A stretch of DNA of 64,000 nt from Tistrella mobilis. Lineage in GTDB: Bacteria; Pseudomonadota; Alphaproteobacteria; Tistrellales; Tistrellaceae. Where the stretch lies: NCBI RefSeq assembly GCF_039634785.1, contig NZ_JBBIAB010000007.1:248001-312000 (forward strand), written 5' to 3'. Both the position numbers and the translations under genes were made by a program. Below the pieces are notes generated by a model that saw nothing but the letters and a program-made list of their open reading frames with translations, was not told the DNA's origin and made no database searches. Shown here one piece after another: positions 1-10,819 of the stretch (position 1 is the stretch's first letter; each line of letters starts with the position of its first letter).

Positions 1-3000
1 GCCGGGCCAGCGCCTCGGCCGGCCCGCGCGACAGCGCCGCGATGCCCTGGAAGGCCGGGCCGTAATTCAGCCCGCGGGCCGCGAAGGCGCCATAGCCACG
101 ATCGGCCACCGCTTCGGTGCAGCGCCCGGCCGCAGCCTCCAGATCCACCGCCTGGGCCGGCAGCGCGCCCTGGGGCTTCAACGTCATCGAGGCATGCAGC
201 GTCCACGGCGCCTCGTCCTCGCCGAGCGGCCGGGAGAGCACCCGGGCGCCACCGCTGGCGGGATCGAGCGCCACCTGCAGCTTCACCGCCCGATCGGCCC
301 CCAGGATCAGGGCCTTCAGGAAGCGCACATCCTCGACCGCCGCCGGCACGGCGCCCATGGCCGCGGTCCAGGCGGCCAGCGCCGCCTCGATGAAACCGGC
401 GCCGGGGAACAGAACCGAGCCGCCGACGGCATGGTCTGCCAGATAGGGCAGCCGCTCCAGATCGATGCGGATCTCGTAGAGCGGCAGGCCGGCGGCGATC
501 CGCCGGCCGATGAAGGGATGGGCGGGCAGGCCGGCGCGGCCGTCCAGGCTCTCCGCCGCCTCCTGCCAGTAGCGCTTGTCCTGCCAGGGATAGGCCGGCA
601 GCCGCACCGGCCGCAGCCGGTCGACGCCCGAGACCGCCTGCCAGTCGACCCGGTGGCCGGCGGCATAGAGCTGGCCCAGATTGCCGAGCAGAACCGCACG
701 CTCTTCCGTCTGGCGGCGGAGCGAATGCGCCGTCATCACCCGCTCGCCCAGCTCGCCCGCCGTGTCGTCGATCGAGGACGAGATGACCGGATGCGGCCCG
801 ACCTCCAGGAAGGTCCGATGGCCGTCGCGGATCAGGCTGCGGATCGCGTCGGCGAAGCGCACCGGCTGGCGGACATTGCGCCACCAATAGGCGGCGTCAT
901 AGGGCAGATCCTCCGCCAGATCGCCGGTGACGGTGGAATAGAGCGGCAGGTCCGCCGCAGCCGGCCGGATCGCGGCGAGCGAGGCTTCCAGATCCTCGCG
1001 CAGCGGATCCATGTGGTGGCTGTGGAAGGGCACGGCCACGGTCAGGAAGCGGTTGAACCGCCCCTCTGCGGCAAGGCCTGCCGCGATCGCCTCCAGCGGT
1101 TCGGCATCGCCCGCGAGCGTCAGGATGCCGGGGCCGTTCATGGCCGCGATCGACACCCGGTCGGCCACGGGCGCGATCCGCTCCAGCGCCTCGGCCTCGG
1201 TCAGGGCCGCCGCCAGCATGCGGCCCTTGCCGCTGGCCCGCTGCTGCACGCGTGAGCGGTGATAGATCACGGTGCAGGCGGTGGCGAGGTCCAGTTGGCC
1301 GGCGACATGGGCGGCGGCCGCCTCGCCGGTCGAATGGCCGACGATGGCCGCGGGGCGGATGCCCCAATGGCTCCAGAGCCGGGCGAGGCCGACCTGAAGG
1401 GCGAAGTTCGACGGCTGCGAGATATAGGTCTCGGCCATCAGGCTCTGCGCCTCGTCGCGGCACATCTCGTCCATCAGCGACCAGGGCGCGCCGGCCGCGC
1501 GCAGATGGGCATCGCATTCCTCGATCGCGGCCCGGAACAGGGGTTCGCGCTCGATCAGCTGGCGGCCCATCGCCCACCATTGCGGGCCCATGCCCGAGAA
1601 GACATAGACCGGGTTGCCGGGTGCGGAACGGGCCCGGCCGCGGCCGGCGATGATGCCGGGGCCGGCCGTGCCGGCGGCGGCATCGCGCAGCCGTTCCGCC
1701 GCCTCGGCATGGTCGGCCGCCACGACCGCCAGCCGGTGGTCGTGCTGGCTGCGCCGGGTGCCCGCCCAGGCGGCGACTTCGGCCAGCGGCCGGTGCGCAG
1801 CCGCCTGGTCGCCATCGGTCAGCGCCTCCGCCAGACGGCGGGCGGCCTCGGCCAGCGCCTCGGCGCTGCGGGCCGAGACCGGGATCAGGACGGGTGCGCC
1901 GGTCCTGTCGGCATCGGGGGCGATGCCAGGCGCCCCTTCGTCCGACAGGGCCGGGCGCACGGCTTCGGCGGGTGCCGCTTCCAGCACCGCATGGGCGTTG
2001 GTGCCGCCGAATCCAAAGGAATTGACGCCCGCGCGGGGCGGATGGCCGTTATCCGGCCAGGGCCGGTCGCTGCTCGCGACCTCGAGCTTCAGCCCGTCGA
2101 AATCGATCTCGGGGTTGGGGCTCTCGAAATTCAGGTTCGATGGCACATGCCGGTGATGAAGGGCGAGCGTCGCCTTGATCAGTCCGGCAATACCCGCCGC
2201 CGCCTCCAGATGGCCGATATTGGTCTTGACCGACCCGACCAGGCAGCGATCGCCATCCGGCCGGCCCTGTGACAGCACGCGGCCGAGCGCGCGGGCCTCG
2301 ATCGGGTCGCCGACCGGCGTGCCGGTGCCATGGGCTTCCATGTATTGCAGCGTGCCGGGCACGATGCCGGCCCGGGCATAGGCGGTCTCCAGCATGCGCG
2401 CCTGGGCATCCTCGCCCGGCACGGTCATGCCGTTGGTATGGCCGTCCTGGTTGACGACCGTGGCCTTGATCACGCCATAGACCGGATCGCCGTCGGCAAG
2501 GGCGGCCGAAAGCGGCTTCAGCACGACGATGCCGGCGCCCTCGCCCCGGGTATAGCCGTTGGCGCGGGCATCGAAGGTCTTGCAGCGGCCATCCGGCGCC
2601 AGCATCGAGGCGCGGCTGAAGCCGATGGTCGGCTCCGGCTTCAGGATCGCATTGACCCCGCCCACGATCGCCGCCCGGCTTTCGCCTGATCGCAGTGACT
2701 GACAGGCGAGGTGGAGGGCCACCAGAGACGAGGAACAGGCGGTGTCGACCGCAACGCTCGGCCCCTTGAGGTTCAAAAGGTACGAGATGCGGTTGGCGGC
2801 GATCGAAAGCGCAAGGCCGGTATTGGTGTGGCCGGAAATCAGCTCGCGATTGGCCATGCCGTGCTGGATTTCGGCATAGTCATAGGCCGCGATGCCGATG
2901 AACACGCCGACATCCGTGCCGTCGATGTCTTCAAGCTTCAGCCCGGCATCGTCGATGGCGTCGACGGCCGATTCGAGCAGCAGGCGCTGCTGGGGGTCCA

Positions 3001-3319
3001 TCAGCTGCGCCTCGCGCGGCGAGATGCCGAAGAAGCCCGGGTCGAAGCGGTCGATGCCGTCCAGGAAACCGCCCATCCGTGTGCCGACGGTGCCGGGACG
3101 GGAGGCCGGATCAGGATGGTGGAACAGGGCCGCATTCCAGCGGTCGGAGGGCACCTCGCGGATGGCATCCACCCGGTTGCGGAGCAGCGACCAGAAGGCC
3201 GCCGGGCTGGAGGCGCCGCCCGGCAGACGGCAGCCGATGCCGATGATGGCGACCGGTTCGGCCACGGAGGAAACCACGGCGGCGGCCTCTGCGGCGGCCA
3301 TATCCTTGGGCGCATTCAT
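1..3319 (-). CDS. Type I polyketide synthase, KS-AT-DH portion (3' end outside window)
   Basis: Modular polyketide synthase; the first 1106 residues are visible and the gene continues beyond base 1. The protein opens directly with a ketosynthase (about residues 15-445) with active Cys195 in DTACSS, then HGTGT and NIGHLE carrying the two catalytic His. An acyltransferase (about 540-850) has Ser663 in GHSTGE and a VPFHS specificity segment, which fits malonyl better than methylmalonyl. A dehydratase begins near 920 with His963 in an intact HxxxGxxxxP motif. No carrier protein precedes the KS, so the starter must arrive from a carrier further along or in trans. The ATG overlaps the ligase stop as ATGA, so translation is coupled. 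Later domains (KR, ACP, release) are not visible; malonyl preference is inferred. Confidence 0.93.
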   Translation of the reverse strand, partial: MNAPKDMAAAEAAAVVSSVAEPVAIIGIGCRLPGGASSPAAFWSLLRNRVDAIREVPSDRWNAALFHHPDPASRPGTVGTRMGGFLDGIDRFDPGFFGISPREAQLMDPQQRLLLESAVDAIDDAGLKLEDIDGTDVGVFIGIAAYDYAEIQHGMANRELISGHTNTGLALSIAANRISYLLNLKGPSVAVDTACSSSLVALHLACQSLRSGESRAAIVGGVNAILKPEPTIGFSRASMLAPDGRCKTFDARANGYTRGEGAGIVVLKPLSAALADGDPVYGVIKATVVNQDGHTNGMTVPGEDAQARMLETAYARAGIVPGTLQYMEAHGTGTPVGDPIEARALGRVLSQGRPDGDRCLVGSVKTNIGHLEAAAGIAGLIKATLALHHRHVPSNLNFESPNPEIDFDGLKLEVASSDRPWPDNGHPPRAGVNSFGFGGTNAHAVLEAAPAEAVRPALSDEGAPGIAPDADRTGAPVLIPVSARSAEALAEAARRLAEALTDGDQAAAHRPLAEVAAWAGTRRSQHDHRLAVVAADHAEAAERLRDAAAGTAGPGIIAGRGRARSAPGNPVYVFSGMGPQWWAMGRQLIEREPLFRAAIEECDAHLRAAGAPWSLMDEMCRDEAQSLMAETYISQPSNFALQVGLARLWSHWGIRPAAIVGHSTGEAAAAHVAGQLDLATACTVIYHRSRVQQRASGKGRMLAAALTEAEALERIAPVADRVSIAAMNGPGILTLAGDAEPLEAIAAGLAAEGRFNRFLTVAVPFHSHHMDPLREDLEASLAAIRPAAADLPLYSTVTGDLAEDLPYDAAYWWRNVRQPVRFADAIRSLIRDGHRTFLEVGPHPVISSSIDDTAGELGERVMTAHSLRRQTEERAVLLGNLGQLYAAGHRVDWQAVSGVDRLRPVRLPAYPWQDKRYWQEAAESLDGRAGLPAHPFIGRRIAAGLPLYEIRIDLERLPYLADHAVGGSVLFPGAGFIEAALAAWTAAMGAVPAAVEDVRFLKALILGADRAVKLQVALDPASGGARVLSRPLGEDEAPWTLHASMTLKPQGALPAQAVDLEAAAGRCTEAVADRGYGAFAARGLNYGPAFQGIAALSRGPAEALAR

Positions 3320-5112
3320 CCGGTGATCCTCCCTGGGGCGGGTGTCGTCTTGTTTTTTGAGGCCGCGGCCTGACGGTCCGCCAGGCGCGCGGCCACGATC
3401 TCGCGGCAGCGGAAGCGCTGAACCTTGCCGCTGGGGGTGCGCGGCACCAGGCCGGCGGCGATCCAATGCGTGCCGATGCCGGTCAGGCCGAAAGCCTCCG
3501 CCAGAGCATCGCGGATGCGCTGGGCGATGGCGGGGCGCGCCTCTTCGGGGCCGAGGCGGGTGTCGAGCAGCAGATGCAGGGTTTCGGTACCGATGGTCTC
3601 GTCGGTAAGACCCACGGCAATGACCGCGGGCGTGATCGCGGCATCGGCCGCGGCTTCGGCCACATCTTCGATCTGGGCGGGGGTGAAATTGCGTCCGCCC
3701 AGGATCAGCAGATCCTTGGCCCGGCCGGTGACATGCAGCCGGCCATCGGCCAGATAGCCCAGATCGCCGGTGCGCAGCCAGCCGTCGGGCCGGGTCAGCC
3801 GGGCGCTTTCGGCCGGATCCTGCCAATAGCCACCGACGGTCGCGGGGCTGGCGACCTCGATCTCGCCGACCCGGCGTTCGGGCAGTTCGGTGCCGTCGGG
3901 CGCGGTGATGCGGATCGCGGCCCCCGGCACGGCCGGCCCCAGGGTGACGGCATGAAGCCGGCGCCCGGCCTCGTCTCCGGCCGGTGCGGCCACCCCTTCG
4001 GCCGCCAGCCGGTCGGCATCGACCGGGTCGGTCACGCAGCCACCCACCGGCGGGATCGCCACCGCCAGCGTCGCCTCGGCCAGGCCATAGACCGGGCGCA
4101 GGGTCTCGGGCGCGAAACCGTGGCTGCCGAAGGCGGCGCTGAAATCCTGCAGGGTGCGGGCATGAACCGGTTCCGCCCCGCACAGCGCCACCCGCCAGGC
4201 CGAGAGGTCCAGCCCGCGCGGCGGGCGCAGCCGGGCCAGGCGCGCGCACATCTGAAAGGCGCTGTTGGGCGCCGGCGACAGCGTACCCTTGTGCCGCGAC
4301 ATCCAGGCCGGCCAGTTCATCGGGTTGCGGACGAATTCGCCGGTATCGGCCAGCACCATCGGCACGCCCCAGCGGAGCGCATAATTGAGCCCGACCAGCC
4401 CCATATCGTGGGAGAGCGGCAGCCACGAGACCAGAACATCGCCGCCCACACCCTCGGGCCCCGGGCAGATCGCCGCCGCGATCTGGGCGAGATTGGCCGA
4501 GAGCCGGTCGTGATGCACCACCGCGAGCTTGGGTGCGCCGGTCGATCCCGATGTCTGCTGAAGATGCGAAATGCCGCGGGGATCGGCGGTCATCGCCGGC
4601 AGGGCTGCGCGCAACCCCGCCGCCAGCAACCGGTCGGCCGCGGCAACCGCCAGACCGGGGGCCTGCGTGTCCAGGCCGTCGAGCGCCCCGGCCGGTTCCG
4701 CCTCGGCAATCAGCAGCCGGGCCCCCGCCCTGCGGGCAATATCGGCCAGATGGGCGCGGGCGGGATCCGGCACCGGCACGGCGGGCGGCGCCACCACCAC
4801 CGGCAGGGCACCGATCGCACCGGCGCCCAGATGCAGCGCCAGGAACAGCCGCGAGGCCGGCAGCGCCAGCACGATACGATCACCGGCCGCGATGCCGGCC
4901 GCCGCCAGAGCCCGGGCGCCGGCGGCGGCGAGCGTCGCAAGATCGCCCCGGGTCAGCACCGCCTCGGCACCACCGCGTTCGATCACGCGCAGGGCGAAGC
5001 CATGGGGCGCGGTCTCGGCCCCACGGGCCACCGCCTCCCAGGTGGTGGCCGCGGGCAACGCGTCATGGAAGCTGCGGAAATGCGGGTCCGCAGGAGAGGT
5101 CGCCATGGTCAT
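3316..5112 (-). CDS. Fatty acyl-AMP ligase (FAAL) loading the adjacent PKS
   Basis: Adenylates a carboxylic acid, probably a fatty acid, and passes it to a carrier protein rather than to CoA. The 598-residue ANL-fold protein has the P-loop QTSGSTGAPK and FAAL-typical stretches WLPLSHDMGL, NSAFQMCARL and YGLAEATL, with the C-terminal lid lysine in PSGKVQRFR. There is no fused carrier domain. I start it at the ATG at 5112, ten bases after a GGAGG; an in-frame GTG at 5121 lies too close to that site. The stop overlaps the PKS start by four bases, which strongly links it to starter-unit activation for that enzyme. An acyl-CoA ligase activity is less likely from these motifs but not excluded. Confidence 0.9.
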   Translation of the reverse strand: MTMATSPADPHFRSFHDALPAATTWEAVARGAETAPHGFALRVIERGGAEAVLTRGDLATLAAAGARALAAAGIAAGDRIVLALPASRLFLALHLGAGAIGALPVVVAPPAVPVPDPARAHLADIARRAGARLLIAEAEPAGALDGLDTQAPGLAVAAADRLLAAGLRAALPAMTADPRGISHLQQTSGSTGAPKLAVVHHDRLSANLAQIAAAICPGPEGVGGDVLVSWLPLSHDMGLVGLNYALRWGVPMVLADTGEFVRNPMNWPAWMSRHKGTLSPAPNSAFQMCARLARLRPPRGLDLSAWRVALCGAEPVHARTLQDFSAAFGSHGFAPETLRPVYGLAEATLAVAIPPVGGCVTDPVDADRLAAEGVAAPAGDEAGRRLHAVTLGPAVPGAAIRITAPDGTELPERRVGEIEVASPATVGGYWQDPAESARLTRPDGWLRTGDLGYLADGRLHVTGRAKDLLILGGRNFTPAQIEDVAEAAADAAITPAVIAVGLTDETIGTETLHLLLDTRLGPEEARPAIAQRIRDALAEAFGLTGIGTHWIAAGLVPRTPSGKVQRFRCREIVAARLADRQAAASKNKTTPAPGRITG

Positions 5113-5132
5113 CTCGGGCACGCCTCCGCGGC

Positions 5133-6668
5133 TCAGCGGGCATAGGCCTTGGCGAAGGCCGGCTCGGCCCCGCGGGCCGACCGGGCCAGCCAGTCACGGG
5201 TGGCACCGTGCCGGGCCTCGAAATCTCCCAGCAGCAGATCCTCTTTCAGCGTGCCCTCGCGGGTGTAGTAGGGCACCTCCAGTTTCTCCAGGAAGCCGAT
5301 ATGGCGTTCCATGCCGCCGCGGCTCTGCGCGACGCTGCGCTGATAGGATTTCAGCCGCATCCGCCGCTGCGGCCGGGTCTCGACCTCGAAGGCGCGTTCG
5401 AAGAACACGTCGTAGCTGTCCAGGATCGACCGCTGCAGGTCGGACGGCCGCATATGGCGCGGGAAGATGCCGACGAAGGAATAGTGCTGATAGGTCGGGA
5501 CCTCCATGATGATCCGGTGATCCTCGATGTCCTGGCGCGCGCCGAACAGCAGGTTCTGGAAGGGATATTCGGCCAGGCACACGAAGGTCGGATGCACGAT
5601 CCGGGCGTCCGCGCACCAGCGGGCGGTGCGGCGGATGGCGCCCTGATCCTGGGCTTCCAGACCGAAGATGATCGCCGAATGGATGTAGACGTCGTTCTCG
5701 GCGAAGCGCCAGAGACGCTCGGTCTGCTCGCTGGCATCGACCTTCTTGTTGAAGGCGCGCAGCACGCCCGGATCTTCGGATTCCACGCCCAGGCAATATT
5801 CGTCGAAGCCCGAGGCCTTCATCTCCAGCACCAGATCCATGTCGTCGGCATGGTTAATCCGGCTCATCGAGATGAATTTATAGGGCCGGTCGCGCACCGC
5901 CTGGGCCACCTGCTGGCAGAAATCGCGCCGGGTGGTGAAGTTGAGATCGGTGACATAGAACCGGGTGCAGCCGGTCTGGGCATGGATGCCGTCCAGCTCG
6001 GCCACGATATCGGGCACGGTCTTGGTCCGGAACCGCCGGCCCAGCAGGCGGATGGCATAGCAGAACGAGCAGTCGAAGGGGCAGCCGCGCGACATCGACA
6101 CCGTCGCCCAGTGCAGCCGCGGCGCCCGCGCCAGCAGTTCCGGGCGGATGGCGGTGGAGACCTTCTCGAACCGCTTCACGTCGGAAATGGCGAGCCGGCC
6201 GTCGTCGCCGATCCAGGCGATGTTCGGAATGTCGTCAATCGGGCCACCGACGCCGCCCACGGCGCGACGGGCGATCAGTTCCAGCGTCGGCAGCTCGCCC
6301 TCGCCGATCACCGCCACATCGGCATATTTCAGCGCCTCGTGCGGGGCGAAAGCCGCATGCGGCCCGCCCATGATCATGAGCGAGTCCTTGCGCCGCCGCC
6401 GGGCGATCGTCTCAAGGGTCGGGATGTTGGACCAGAAATGGGTGGCGAGCGCCGAGACCAGAATGACGTCGTAGCTCTCCAGCGGAAAATCGGCCGGGTT
6501 CTCCCCCCAGAACATCTGGCACATGTCCAGCTGCGCCTCGGGGAGCTGATCGGCGACGAAGGAGGCGACGTAATAGATGCCGTCATTGTAGGTGGTGGCG
6601 AGCGTCGACACATCCGGATAGTCGGGATGGAAGCCGAGCTGAATGGCCAGGATCTTGAGCGCGCTCAT
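5133..6668 (-). CDS. B12-binding-domain radical SAM protein (second of pair)
   Basis: A 511-residue radical SAM enzyme of the cobalamin-binding-domain class. The N-terminal Rossmann-like half (about 1-150) contains MGGPHAAF and GEGE, typical of these B12-domain proteins, but no DxHxxG cobalamin histidine motif is visible. The radical SAM core starts near residue 190 with CPFDCSFC (Cys196, Cys200, Cys203), the ligands of the 4Fe-4S cluster that cleaves S-adenosylmethionine. The stop lies about 20 bases before the FAAL start, so the two are co-transcribed. Related enzymes methylate or rearrange unactivated carbons; the substrate here is unknown, and action on the acyl starter or polyketide is inferred only from context. 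Confidence 0.88.
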   Translation of the reverse strand: MSALKILAIQLGFHPDYPDVSTLATTYNDGIYYVASFVADQLPEAQLDMCQMFWGENPADFPLESYDVILVSALATHFWSNIPTLETIARRRRKDSLMIMGGPHAAFAPHEALKYADVAVIGEGELPTLELIARRAVGGVGGPIDDIPNIAWIGDDGRLAISDVKRFEKVSTAIRPELLARAPRLHWATVSMSRGCPFDCSFCYAIRLLGRRFRTKTVPDIVAELDGIHAQTGCTRFYVTDLNFTTRRDFCQQVAQAVRDRPYKFISMSRINHADDMDLVLEMKASGFDEYCLGVESEDPGVLRAFNKKVDASEQTERLWRFAENDVYIHSAIIFGLEAQDQGAIRRTARWCADARIVHPTFVCLAEYPFQNLLFGARQDIEDHRIIMEVPTYQHYSFVGIFPRHMRPSDLQRSILDSYDVFFERAFEVETRPQRRMRLKSYQRSVAQSRGGMERHIGFLEKLEVPYYTREGTLKEDLLLGDFEARHGATRDWLARSARGAEPAFAKAYAR

Positions 6669-6697
6669 CGGACGGTCCCTCGGACAGGCCCCCCGTC

Positions 6698-6726
6698 GCC
6701 GCCCGCCCTTGCGGCGGGCGGGCGGC
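6698..6726. other. Strong intergenic hairpin between the two radical SAM genes
   Basis: An 11-base perfect stem (6698-6708 with 6716-6726) with a 7-base loop lies in the 114-base gap between two same-strand genes. No T-run follows on the minus strand, so it looks more like a processing or stability element than an intrinsic terminator. Confidence 0.5.
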
Positions 6727-6782
6727 AGACGGATGGTACCGGGCGTTTCGGCAGCAGACGGAACAGGTGATCCGGGCGCCGG

Positions 6783-8132
6783 TCAGCGCTCGGGGGCCGC
6801 GAAGGCGCCGGCGGCCATGCCACCGCCCAGCCGCGACGGCCGGCTGCCGATCGGCAGCTGTCCGCGCTTGGCCGCCATTTCGCGGCGCAGCTTTTCCTTC
6901 ATGTCCTGCTTGATCTTCTGCGCCACGACGCCGGGGTCGTTCACCTTGCGCTGGGCCCAGGCCATCAGGTCGCGGGCCTCTGACGGCGACATCTTCGGGT
7001 GCTTCCAGACCAGGTTGTAGAGGTCGAATTTCGACAGGTCCGGCTCGTTCACCAGATGCTCCATCTGCTTCCACAGCTTGGTGCCGTGGAAGGGCGTGAG
7101 CAGGGTCAGCTGGCAGGCGAACAGCCCCTCATCGGCCAGCTGGGTGATGTCGTATTCCATGTCTTCGATGCTGTCGTCCTGGAAGCCGACCATGAAGGTG
7201 CCGAGGGCACGGCGGCCGTTCTTGATCAGCTCACGGACGGTCGCGCGGACGTTGTAGACGTCGTCGCGCTTCTGGACGTCGGCGATGTTCTTGTCGCGAT
7301 AGCTTTCGATGCCGATGATCGCACCATCCATGCAGCGATCGGTGAGTTCCGAAATCCGGCCGCGCAGCAGATCGGCACGGGTCAGGCAGATCCAGCCGAG
7401 GCCACGCTTGGCCAGCCCGTCGACCACCCGTTCGGCGATGTCGTTCTTCAGGAAGAATGACTCGTCGTAGATGATGACATGGGCGACACTGTTCTCCTTA
7501 TAGGTGTCGAGCGCGTACTCCATGTCCTCCATGAAGATCGCGTCTTCCTTCGGATTGAACACCGGCGTCGAACAGAAGGTGCAGCCGATGTTGCAGCCGC
7601 GCTTGCTGTAGAGATAGCCGACCTTCGAACTCACGCCGCGGAAGCTCGACTCGCCCATCATCGGCGGATGGGTGACGTGCTCCAGCGGCCGCCCGTAGAC
7701 GTATTGATGCAGCACGTATTCGCCCGGTCCCTTGATCAGCCGGTCGAAATGCGGCTGGATTCCGGGCGTGATCGCGCCGTAATTGCCGCCCCAGACCTCT
7801 TTCACCCCGTATTCACGGGCGAGTTTCGCCATCTGGATCGCGACCGGCACAGACCAGGTGTAGAAGCTGATGCCCACCATGTCCCACTGCTCTGAGCCGA
7901 GCGCCTTTTCGTATTCGGCCCAGGTGGGATATTCCAGAACCTCGACATCCGGCACATTGGCCTTCAGGAAGTTCAGACCTGTGGGGGGGCAGGTCACCGA
8001 CAGGCGGTCGGCGAGGTCGTTGGCGCAGGTCCAGGCCATGTAAGTATCGGTGCGATCGTACCAGTTGCCGCCGATACCGTTCATCTCCACCAGCGCCTCC
8101 TTGGGCGCCGTGGTGAGAAGTACCCGTTTCAT
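6783..8132 (-). CDS. B12-binding-domain radical SAM protein (first of pair)
   Basis: First gene of the polyketide operon, 449 residues. Like its neighbour it has an N-terminal cobalamin-domain-like half (about 1-160) and a radical SAM core with CNIGCTFC (Cys180, Cys184, Cys187). The N-terminal half retains the GISFYTWS and VWGGNYGA strands usual for this class but no obvious DxHxxG. The two radical SAM proteins are not close copies, so they probably act on different positions or steps. GGGAGG sits eight bases before the ATG. The 398-base upstream region is AT-rich and holds two palindromes, consistent with a regulated operon promoter. Substrate unknown. Confidence 0.87.
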   Translation of the reverse strand: MKRVLLTTAPKEALVEMNGIGGNWYDRTDTYMAWTCANDLADRLSVTCPPTGLNFLKANVPDVEVLEYPTWAEYEKALGSEQWDMVGISFYTWSVPVAIQMAKLAREYGVKEVWGGNYGAITPGIQPHFDRLIKGPGEYVLHQYVYGRPLEHVTHPPMMGESSFRGVSSKVGYLYSKRGCNIGCTFCSTPVFNPKEDAIFMEDMEYALDTYKENSVAHVIIYDESFFLKNDIAERVVDGLAKRGLGWICLTRADLLRGRISELTDRCMDGAIIGIESYRDKNIADVQKRDDVYNVRATVRELIKNGRRALGTFMVGFQDDSIEDMEYDITQLADEGLFACQLTLLTPFHGTKLWKQMEHLVNEPDLSKFDLYNLVWKHPKMSPSEARDLMAWAQRKVNDPGVVAQKIKQDMKEKLRREMAAKRGQLPIGSRPSRLGGGMAAGAFAAPER

Positions 8133-8530: not shown

Positions 8531-9325
8531 ATGTCTGAACTGCTTGAACGCATTGAAAGCGGCGTCGCCTGGCTGACGCTCAACCGGCCGGAACGGCGCA
8601 ATGCCATGTCGCGGCCGATGCTGGCCGCGCTGGTCTCGGCCCTCACCCGGCTTGCCGCCGACGATGATGTGCGGGTGGTGGTGCTGACGGGTGCCGGCGG
8701 CGCCTTCTGCGCCGGGGGCGACGTCAAGCGCATGGCGGAAACCGCCGAGGCCGAAGCCGCGAAGTCGAGCGAGCGCCGGGCCACGGAACTGCGCCAGGTG
8801 ATGGAAGCCTCGCGCTGGCTGCACGAGATGGGCAAGCCGACCATCGCCGCCCTGCCCGGGCCCGCGGCCGGTGCCGGCCTGTCGCTGGCATTGGCCTGCG
8901 ACATGCGCATCGCCGCCCGCACCGCCGTGATGACCACCGCCTTCGCCAAGGTGGCCCTGTCGGGCGATTTCGGTGGCAGCTGGTTCCTGACCCAATTGGT
9001 CGGTCCCGCCAAGGCGCGGGAGCTTTACTTCACCGCCGAGCTGCTCGACATGACCGCGGCCGAGAAGCTGGGCCTGGTCAACCGCGTGGTCGATGCCGAG
9101 GCCCTGGAGGCCGAGACCCGCATGATCGCCGAGACGCTTGCCCGCGGGCCGGCGCTGACCTATGCCGCCATCAAGCGCAATATGAACCTGGCACAGGCCG
9201 GCACGCTGTCGGAGGTGATGGATCTGGAAGCGATCCAGCACACCCGCTGTTCGGAAAGCGCCGACCACCGCGAGGCGGCACAGGCCTTCGTCGAGAAGCG
9301 GGCGCCCCGGTTCATCGGCCGCTGA
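8531..9325 (+). CDS. Enoyl-CoA hydratase/isomerase (crotonase family)
   Basis: A 264-residue crotonase-fold enzyme acting on an acyl-CoA thioester, probably hydration or isomerisation in fatty or aromatic acid breakdown. The oxyanion-hole segments are AFCAGGDVKR (near residue 60) and PGPAAGAGLSLAL (near 115). The second acidic region reads SGDFGGSW, with Asp where classical hydratases carry Glu; this resembles PaaG-type isomerases, so strict enoyl-CoA hydratase activity is uncertain. GGAGG precedes the ATG closely. It diverges from the polyketide operon and could be independent of it. Confidence 0.88.
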   Translation: MSELLERIESGVAWLTLNRPERRNAMSRPMLAALVSALTRLAADDDVRVVVLTGAGGAFCAGGDVKRMAETAEAEAAKSSERRATELRQVMEASRWLHEMGKPTIAALPGPAAGAGLSLALACDMRIAARTAVMTTAFAKVALSGDFGGSWFLTQLVGPAKARELYFTAELLDMTAAEKLGLVNRVVDAEALEAETRMIAETLARGPALTYAAIKRNMNLAQAGTLSEVMDLEAIQHTRCSESADHREAAQAFVEKRAPRFIGR

Positions 9326-10217: not shown

Positions 10218-10282
10218 ATGGCCAAGGGGCGTTTCCCCGTGCGCCCTGATTCTGGCAAACCGGTATCCCGATGAGGACCGCC

Positions 10283-10819
10283 ATGAATCAGATCAGTCAG
10301 ACGACCCCCACCACGATCCACCAGGACGGCGAGGTCACACCGCGTTTCGCCGTGTTGCGTGCGCGCTGGCATGCCGAGCTGGTCGACCGCGCCGTCGACG
10401 GCTTTGCGGCACGCATGGCCGAACGTGGCATTCCCGCCGACGCCATCGACGTGATCGACCTGCCCGGCGCCTTCGAAATCCCGCTGGAGGCCAAGCGCAT
10501 CGCGGAAGCCGGCCGGCATGTGGCCGTCATCGCGGTGGGCTTCGTGGTCGACGGCGGCATCTACCGCCACGACTTCGTCGCCCGTGCGGTGATCGAGGGG
10601 CTGATGCGCGTCCAGCTCGACACCGGCATGCCGGTGTTCTCGGTGGTGCTGACACCGCATCACTTCCACGAGCATGATGTCCATCAGGCCTTCTTCACCG
10701 GCCATATGACCACCAAAGGGCACGAGGCCGCCGAGGCCTGCCTTGCCACCCCGGCCGTGCGCGACCGGCTGGGCGACCATGCCACCAGGCCAGACGCCAC
10801 CAGGGCCGACGCCGCCTGA
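10283..10819 (+). CDS. ribH: 6,7-dimethyl-8-ribityllumazine synthase, type II (RibH2)
   Basis: Condenses 5-amino-6-ribitylamino-uracil with dihydroxybutanone phosphate to form the riboflavin precursor lumazine. The 178-residue protein matches the RibH2 class of alphaproteobacteria: FVVDGGIYRHDFVA, GLMRVQLDTGMPV, SVVLTPHHFHEH and GHMTTKGHEAAEAC. Classical RibH has a different VIxGxTxHF substrate loop. I use the ATG at 10283, six bases after GAGGA; an ATG at 10271 would overlap that site. It stands alone behind the FMN riboswitch, with no other rib genes nearby, as reported for ribH2 of Brucella-type bacteria. Confidence 0.94.
   Translation: MNQISQTTPTTIHQDGEVTPRFAVLRARWHAELVDRAVDGFAARMAERGIPADAIDVIDLPGAFEIPLEAKRIAEAGRHVAVIAVGFVVDGGIYRHDFVARAVIEGLMRVQLDTGMPVFSVVLTPHHFHEHDVHQAFFTGHMTTKGHEAAEACLATPAVRDRLGDHATRPDATRADAA

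Follow-up and report, generated by a model that had tools for sequence, protein, structure and literature searches.

A rare gene module joining two radical SAM enzymes to a fatty acyl-AMP ligase, a free acyl carrier protein and an altered ketosynthase in Proteobacteria and Actinobacteria

We describe here a gene module located at one end of a 64,000-nucleotide stretch of Tistrella mobilis DNA (hereafter the window; contig NZ_JBBIAB010000007.1, or C7, C7:248001-312000), in which two different radical S-adenosylmethionine (SAM) enzymes, RS1 and RS2, are encoded together with a fatty acyl-AMP ligase (FAAL), a free acyl carrier protein (ACP), a free ketosynthase (KS) and a hotdog thioesterase. Each of these six components was found at all ten distinct loci identified in Proteobacteria and Actinobacteria. 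A type I polyketide synthase (PKS), in contrast, was found within the operon in two Proteobacteria only, and the core thus appears to consist of a FAAL/ACP acyl line and two radical SAM enzymes to which the PKS is an add-on. With moderate confidence, we propose that the six genes make up an acyl-carrier biosynthetic module in which the FAAL loads the ACP, RS1 and RS2 functionalize the chain, and the KS and thioesterase, or a PKS, follow.

Gene content, conservation and distribution of the module

The features of the Tistrella locus are given below in window positions, or in those of L001 (C7:237001-257000) where they lie beyond the window; window position p corresponds to L001 position p+11000.

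6783-8132, minus strand: RS1, radical SAM enzyme of 449 aa with CX3CX2C at C180/C184/C187 and a probable B12-type (class B) N-terminal domain
5133-6668, minus strand: RS2, radical SAM enzyme of 511 aa with a B12-binding domain and CX3CX2C at C196/C200/C203
3316-5121, minus strand: FAAL, probable fatty acyl-AMP ligase of 601 aa
1-3319, minus strand: KS-AT-DH part of the type I PKS, 2538 aa in all, running on to L001:6703 (window -4297)
L001:6216-6650, minus strand: hotdog thioesterase of 144 aa
L001:5894-6145, minus strand: free ACP of 83 aa
L001:4506-5876, minus strand: free FabF-like KS of 456 aa
8133-8530: intergenic region between RS1 and a divergent enoyl-CoA hydratase gene, where the operon promoter is presumed to lie

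The four minus-strand genes for RS1, RS2, the FAAL and the PKS, on which the initial annotation was built, lie where it had placed them, including the 4-base ATGA overlap at the FAAL/PKS junction. Reading 6.5 kb beyond window base 1 completed the set, adding the remaining PKS domains (cMT-ER-KR-ACP), the hotdog thioesterase and the conserved free ACP and free KS. The gene order on the minus strand is RS1, RS2, FAAL, PKS, thioesterase, ACP and FabF-like KS, with successive intergenic gaps of 114, 11, -4, 52, 70 and 17 bp. The complete domain order of the Tistrella PKS, KS-AT-DH-cMT-ER-KR-ACP, is that of a type I reducing PKS with a C-methyltransferase; no thioesterase domain was reported within it by Pfam. 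In a pattern scan, no terminator-like site on the minus strand fell between the operon genes and one fell inside RS1 (5 sites on both strands versus 4.8 expected from shuffles), a scan for sigma-70 consensus promoters found none (1.4 expected), and an Rfam search returned no match. The simplest reading of this arrangement is that RS1 to KS form one operon. In T. mobilis KA081020-065, RS1 is located at NC_017956.1:533444.

To find relatives of the module, 84,980 species were scanned with two RS1 peptide patterns, and a plasmid collection was searched as well. Because the pattern scan requires exact matches, remote members would be missed. The pattern scan yielded 55 stretches, nine of which encode an RS1 relative: T. 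mobilis, Streptomyces orinoci, S. alfalfae, S. olivoreticuli, S. macrolidinus, S. cupreus, Streptantibioticus rubrisoli, Actinocrinis puniceicyclus and a Telmatospirillum metagenome-assembled genome. One of the 25 matching records from the plasmid collection was more than 60% identical, that of S. camelliae. With Tistrella counted once, the set comprises ten distinct loci, namely Tistrella, Telmatospirillum and eight Actinobacteria. Their core content was established by tblastn with the Tistrella proteins, the ACP and KS of Telmatospirillum being found once its contig was extended. Identity to the Tistrella proteins was 71-76% for RS1 and 69-75% for RS2, exceeding that of the FAAL (45-49%), the KS (49-51%) and the ACP (53-60%), and the radical enzymes are thus the most constrained part of the module.

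The order RS1-RS2-FAAL was kept at all ten loci; the PKS was not part of what was kept. The Telmatospirillum PKS follows the FAAL, is 48-52% identical to that of Tistrella and has the same domain order (a 10-N assembly gap interrupts its gene, the two halves of which were read separately). In the Actinobacteria, the ACP, the free KS and the thioesterase come after the FAAL at all eight loci, and no type I PKS was found with the PKS query within 10 kb on either side. The PKS was therefore rejected as a member of the conserved core, and the coupling of the radical SAM enzymes to a FAAL-PKS line as such was not supported; the radical SAM genes are conserved without the PKS, but not without the FAAL. 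The PKS query was also run against the whole genomes of seven of the eight Actinobacteria, S. camelliae being represented by a 41 kb plasmid stretch. Among the matches listed, full-length ones came from S. olivoreticuli and S. orinoci only (39-41% identity, against 51-52% for the operon PKS of Telmatospirillum), either on a different contig from the module or at a distance of over 1 Mb, and partial ones reached up to 50% identity (residues 17-939, in S. macrolidinus, likewise on a different contig). An unlinked PKS could conceivably serve the actinobacterial module; by sequence, none is encoded within its operon. The thioesterase gene varies in position, following the KS gene in all eight Actinobacteria (with a second copy within 10 kb in three), adjoining it on the opposite strand in Telmatospirillum and lying between the PKS and ACP genes in Tistrella.

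The module is rare. The order and family of Tistrella comprise three genomes of one genus, all of which carry RS1 and RS2. RS1 was detected in three of 385 sampled genomes of the window's class (E<=1e-40), all from the window's genus. Of 398 genomes sampled from the phylum, the genome of the window was the only one with RS1 (E<=1e-25), and of 394 sampled from the class to which Actinocrinis belongs, Actinocrinis alone had it (E<=1e-12). These searches added no member, and the notion of a common module was rejected. The radical SAM proteins are 69-77% identical across two phyla (tblastn, Tistrella queries), and since this conservation is accompanied by one copy on a plasmid, the comparison points to horizontal transfer of the module between Proteobacteria and Actinobacteria.

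Several neighboring genes were considered as well. Three consecutive genes for phage-tail-collar domain proteins directly follow the Tistrella KS gene (L001 2660-4362, minus strand). They were rejected as part of the module: a 143-bp gap separates them from the KS, and queries with two of them gave no match at ten other loci (L009-L018), among which the T. mobilis locus ends earlier; T. mobilis also carries tail-collar genes. The divergent enoyl-CoA hydratase gene (window 8531-9325) was likewise rejected. Hydratase-type genes occur near four of the ten loci, on differing sides or strands, and their products share ~30% identity with the Tistrella hydratase. The module is accompanied, on different sides in S. 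orinoci (L011 18004-20324) and S. macrolidinus (L016 7095-9490), by genes for a LysR regulator (85% identity) and an MFS transporter (~60%).

The radical SAM enzymes, the FAAL and the free ketosynthase

As stated in the initial annotation, RS1 and RS2 are non-identical, aligning over 232 columns with 20% identity in a profile comparison (probability 94.6). The CX3CX2C motif and PF04055, by which the radical SAM superfamily is recognized, were present in all ten members of both families. The assignment of a B12-binding domain to both enzymes fared differently for each. For RS2 it is firm as a sequence- and model-based assignment to the B12-type (class B): PF02310 was found in all ten members and scored above the curated Pfam cut-off in the window protein (43.4 versus 32.1 bits). 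For RS1, where PF02310 was detected in four of ten members (the window protein counted among the ten; best E 1.7e-6), a B12-type enzyme is probable. Comparison with the NCBIfam radical SAM equivalogs, which include BchE, HpnJ, HpnR, PhpK, KedN5 and MgmA, placed neither protein in a named family, none of nine families for RS1 and none of 18 for RS2 reaching the respective cut-offs (251-775); the best scores were 50 bits for RS1 (HpnJ) and 72 bits for RS2 (BchE, cut-off 481).

AlphaFold models were built from nine-row alignments, with a mean pLDDT of 70.8 for RS2 and 56.6 for RS1. Using VIA-align, the RS2 model matched CysS with a Z of 17.3 (root-mean-square deviation 4.8, 389 residues aligned), followed by MgmA (17.1), OxsB (16.7), AprD4 (15.9), TsrM (15.2) and TokK (13.7), other radical SAM folds scoring 12.8 or less. 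The match spans residues 1 to about 410-467, and B12-type enzymes were also found by Foldseek. There is precedent within this fold class for acting on substrates of the carrier type, TokK and CysS having been solved with pantetheinylated substrates according to their structure titles and, for CysS, also to a published article (PMC12846815). Reactions ascribed to class members comprise methylation, ring contraction, ring formation and thioether formation (PMC13331322); because they vary in this way, family membership does not reveal which type of reaction is catalyzed. In S. cupreus, a gene for an NADPH-FMN reductase/flavodoxin-like protein lies ~0.5 kb upstream of RS1 (L017 8902-9516), and its product is a possible electron donor for the radical SAM enzymes.

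The closest solved relative of the FAAL is 3pbk, a 'Fatty Acyl-Adenylate Ligase'. At E<=1e-40 the FAAL had 13 matches, which include FadD23 and FadD32, the others being variously named by their depositors, and its best NCBIfam model, 'fatty acyl-AMP ligase', scored 335 bits, below the cut-off of 600.

The best solved matches of the free KS are of the FabF type (1j3n, E 2.2e-98). In an alignment of the ten free KS proteins, the catalytic Cys and Lys were conserved throughout, while the first His was replaced by Gln and the second by Tyr in nine of ten, such that the Cys-His-His-Lys signature of decarboxylating ketosynthases was absent from nine of the ten proteins. Alignment to FabF 1j3n placed the Gln and Tyr at the two catalytic histidines, and 1j3n has the usual His at both. 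Two paralogues, from T. mobilis and Actinocrinis, picked regardless of motif, also had both histidines. The loss of these residues is known from non-elongating KS domains of PKSs. Because the Cys is kept and both catalytic histidines are lost in nine of ten, the free KS is probably a transacylase rather than an elongating enzyme. S. olivoreticuli (L014 14815-16077) harbors the sole member with His at both sites, reading Cys-His-His. In a KS tree, this protein was nested within a five-row clade (support 97/97), and its motif thus looks like a return rather than the ancestral state. The remaining tree was weaker and carried a long-branch warning; the outgroup (L024), whose join the program flagged as long-branched, had been picked by its histidine motif and is not counted among the histidine controls.

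Proposed function and alternative explanations

We infer the following series of steps. The FAAL would convert a fatty acid to an acyl-AMP and transfer the acyl group to the dedicated free ACP. RS1 and RS2, as partners of the B12-type fold, would then functionalize the chain on the ACP at an unactivated carbon. Enzymes of this class most commonly catalyze C-methylation, and ring formation, desaturation or C-C coupling would also be possible. The free KS would hand the modified chain on by thioester exchange, without elongation, and the hotdog thioesterase would serve in its release or proof-reading. The two Proteobacteria have in addition the cMT-containing type I PKS, which would extend, reduce and alpha-methylate the chain, a step missing from the Actinobacteria. 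The module probably yields a fatty acid or lipid that has been chemically modified. As suggested in the initial annotation, modification of an acyl chain by radical chemistry is still the best reading of a gene set in which RS1, RS2 and the FAAL are kept together at every locus.

One may tentatively go further and suppose a new lipid-tailoring pathway, encoded by a compact module that spread between Proteobacteria and Actinobacteria. Two dedicated B12-type radical SAM enzymes would act successively on one acyl-ACP, and the KS, as a transacylase, would deliver the modified chain to an enzyme for release, to a PKS or, for some of the Actinobacteria, to a partner derived from a flavin. If true, this would mean that an unactivated fatty-acid carbon is changed enzymatically on a carrier protein by two B12-type radical enzymes in one pathway. 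Because the module consists of six genes, occurs in cultured Streptomyces and could be moved whole to a laboratory host, paired radical SAM action on acyl chains is directly testable. The Cys-Gln-Tyr KS is a second testable oddity, for which the Cys-His-His protein of S. olivoreticuli provides a natural control.

Flavin genes around some of the loci suggest a different context. In S. camelliae (L009, NZ_CP115301.1, 1719-31284), the module lies between genes annotated rosB and rosC, in surroundings that also include ribA, ribC, ribX and a RibB gene. Downstream of the S. rubrisoli module, homologues of ten S. camelliae neighbors were found with 58-82% identity (L030 2-14630; L012 18175-20816), namely a GNAT protein, two ATP-grasp proteins, a methyltransferase, BKACE, RibA, an archaeal-type riboflavin synthase, RibB, RibX and a substrate-binding protein. 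In Actinocrinis (L047 13632-14175), fragments of RibA (55% over 71 aa), BKACE (67% over 30 aa) and the methyltransferase (41% over 63 aa) occur in the same order, ~11 kb from RS1, adjoining an open reading frame judged from its translation to be putatively transposase-like. As a matter of gene neighborhood, a flavin link is real for at least two loci. Flavin queries were run against 510,510 bases of locus sequence and the window. The flavin set was absent from the flanks read of S. orinoci, S. alfalfae, S. macrolidinus, S. cupreus and Telmatospirillum, where single weak matches (29-35%) fell in transporter, ATP-grasp and PKS methyltransferase domains. RosB had no match at E<=1e-10 in seven of nine carrier genomes, S. 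rubrisoli included; the two matches, in S. alfalfae (38%) and the window's genome (36%), lie on contigs other than the module's. rosC, sought in the locus flanks, was found in S. camelliae only. In S. olivoreticuli, an apparently ordinary riboflavin operon is located ~17-22 kb from RS1. On the plus strand of the window (10271-10819), 2.1 kb from RS1, lies a gene for a RibH-type 6,7-dimethyl-8-ribityllumazine synthase (215 bits versus an NCBIfam PRK12419 cut-off of 160).

From these neighborhoods one might conclude that the acyl module serves a flavin-containing product, with the radical SAM enzymes or the acyl group acting on a riboflavin derivative, and that it was later split from the flavin genes in most lineages. 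The S. camelliae and S. rubrisoli surroundings and the ordered Actinocrinis fragments are in keeping with such a history, but the five loci devoid of the set, the missing or off-module RosB matches and the presence near the Tistrella module of a RibH-type lumazine synthase only make it, in our judgment, improbable. We also consider quite unlikely that the locus is a FAAL-primed PKS lipid line whose starter or PKS-bound chain is methylated or otherwise modified by the radical SAM enzymes. The identical domain order of the PKS after the FAAL in Tistrella and Telmatospirillum, and the ATGA overlap in Tistrella, would fit it; against it, eight of ten loci keep all else without a PKS in the operon, and the PKS has a cMT domain of its own. 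A third possibility concerns the chemistry itself, RS1 and RS2 being a dehydratase, cyclase or dehydrogenase pair of AprD4- or BchE-like radical chemistry rather than methylases. It draws on the BchE score of RS2, which is far under its cut-off, and on AprD4 as the best VIA-align match of RS1. Four of the six nearest solved B12-type relatives of RS2 are methylases, however (CysS, MgmA, TsrM and TokK, but not OxsB or AprD4), and the NCBIfam scores, all so far under their cut-offs, favor no particular subfamily; on balance, we hold this possibility to be unlikely.

The acyl-carrier reading that we prefer has points to answer as well. PF02310 gave no match in the window RS1 even at E<=10. The RS1 model, poor as it is, retrieved MgmA first and AprD4 second by Foldseek, and by VIA-align AprD4 (Z 9.8) and TsrM (9.1), with other radical SAM folds reaching up to 8.9; AprD4 is a fold relative that works without cobalamin, and since its mean pLDDT is so low, the model gives no decision on B12 in RS1. 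That the free ACP, rather than the ACP of the PKS, is the putative carrier of the radical SAM substrate is an assumption. The Cys-His-His KS of S. olivoreticuli may, judging from its motif, elongate in that strain. Flavin-type genes or fragments beside three of the eight actinobacterial loci are left unexplained, and no metabolite of the module is known. All of these count against the acyl-carrier reading, which we hold with moderate confidence.

Comparison with known systems

In line with the initial annotation, which recognized no described pathway, none matched in our literature searches. No paper describing the gene set was found (radical SAM enzymes with FAAL, ACP or PKS; Tistrella clusters), most subscription papers and MIBiG lying outside the search, and the main text of a Tistrella survey contains neither 'radical SAM' nor 'PKS' (PMC9964501).

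With CysS, TokK, TsrM, MgmA and OxsB, RS2 shares the B12-binding domain, the CX3CX2C motif and, for the greater part of its sequence, the fold. RS1 and RS2 differ from these enzymes in reaching no equivalog cut-off, and in the literature found no cobalamin radical SAM system was described in which a tandem pair accompanies a FAAL, an ACP and a KS. Roseoflavin biosynthesis, known from Streptomyces davaonensis, is echoed in S. camelliae by the rosB and rosC annotations around its module, but differs in that RosB is unmatched in most of the other carriers (36-38% identity in the two that match) and rosC, among the flanks searched, is confined to those of S. camelliae.

FadD32, FadD23 and Pks2 belong to mycobacterial FAAL-primed PKS lipid pathways. 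The module is like these pathways in its FAAL-type match and, in the two Proteobacteria, in having the FAAL beside a reducing PKS; it differs from them by its radical SAM pair, its free ACP, its free KS devoid of the His-His pair, the lack of an operon PKS in Actinobacteria and the PKS having its own cMT. The free KS belongs to the sequence family of FabF/KAS II and shares its Cys, but has Gln and Tyr for the catalytic histidines in nine of ten members. Each part of the module is thus of a known family; what stands out as unusual is that they are combined, that the combination is tightly conserved between phyla, and that the KS is altered.

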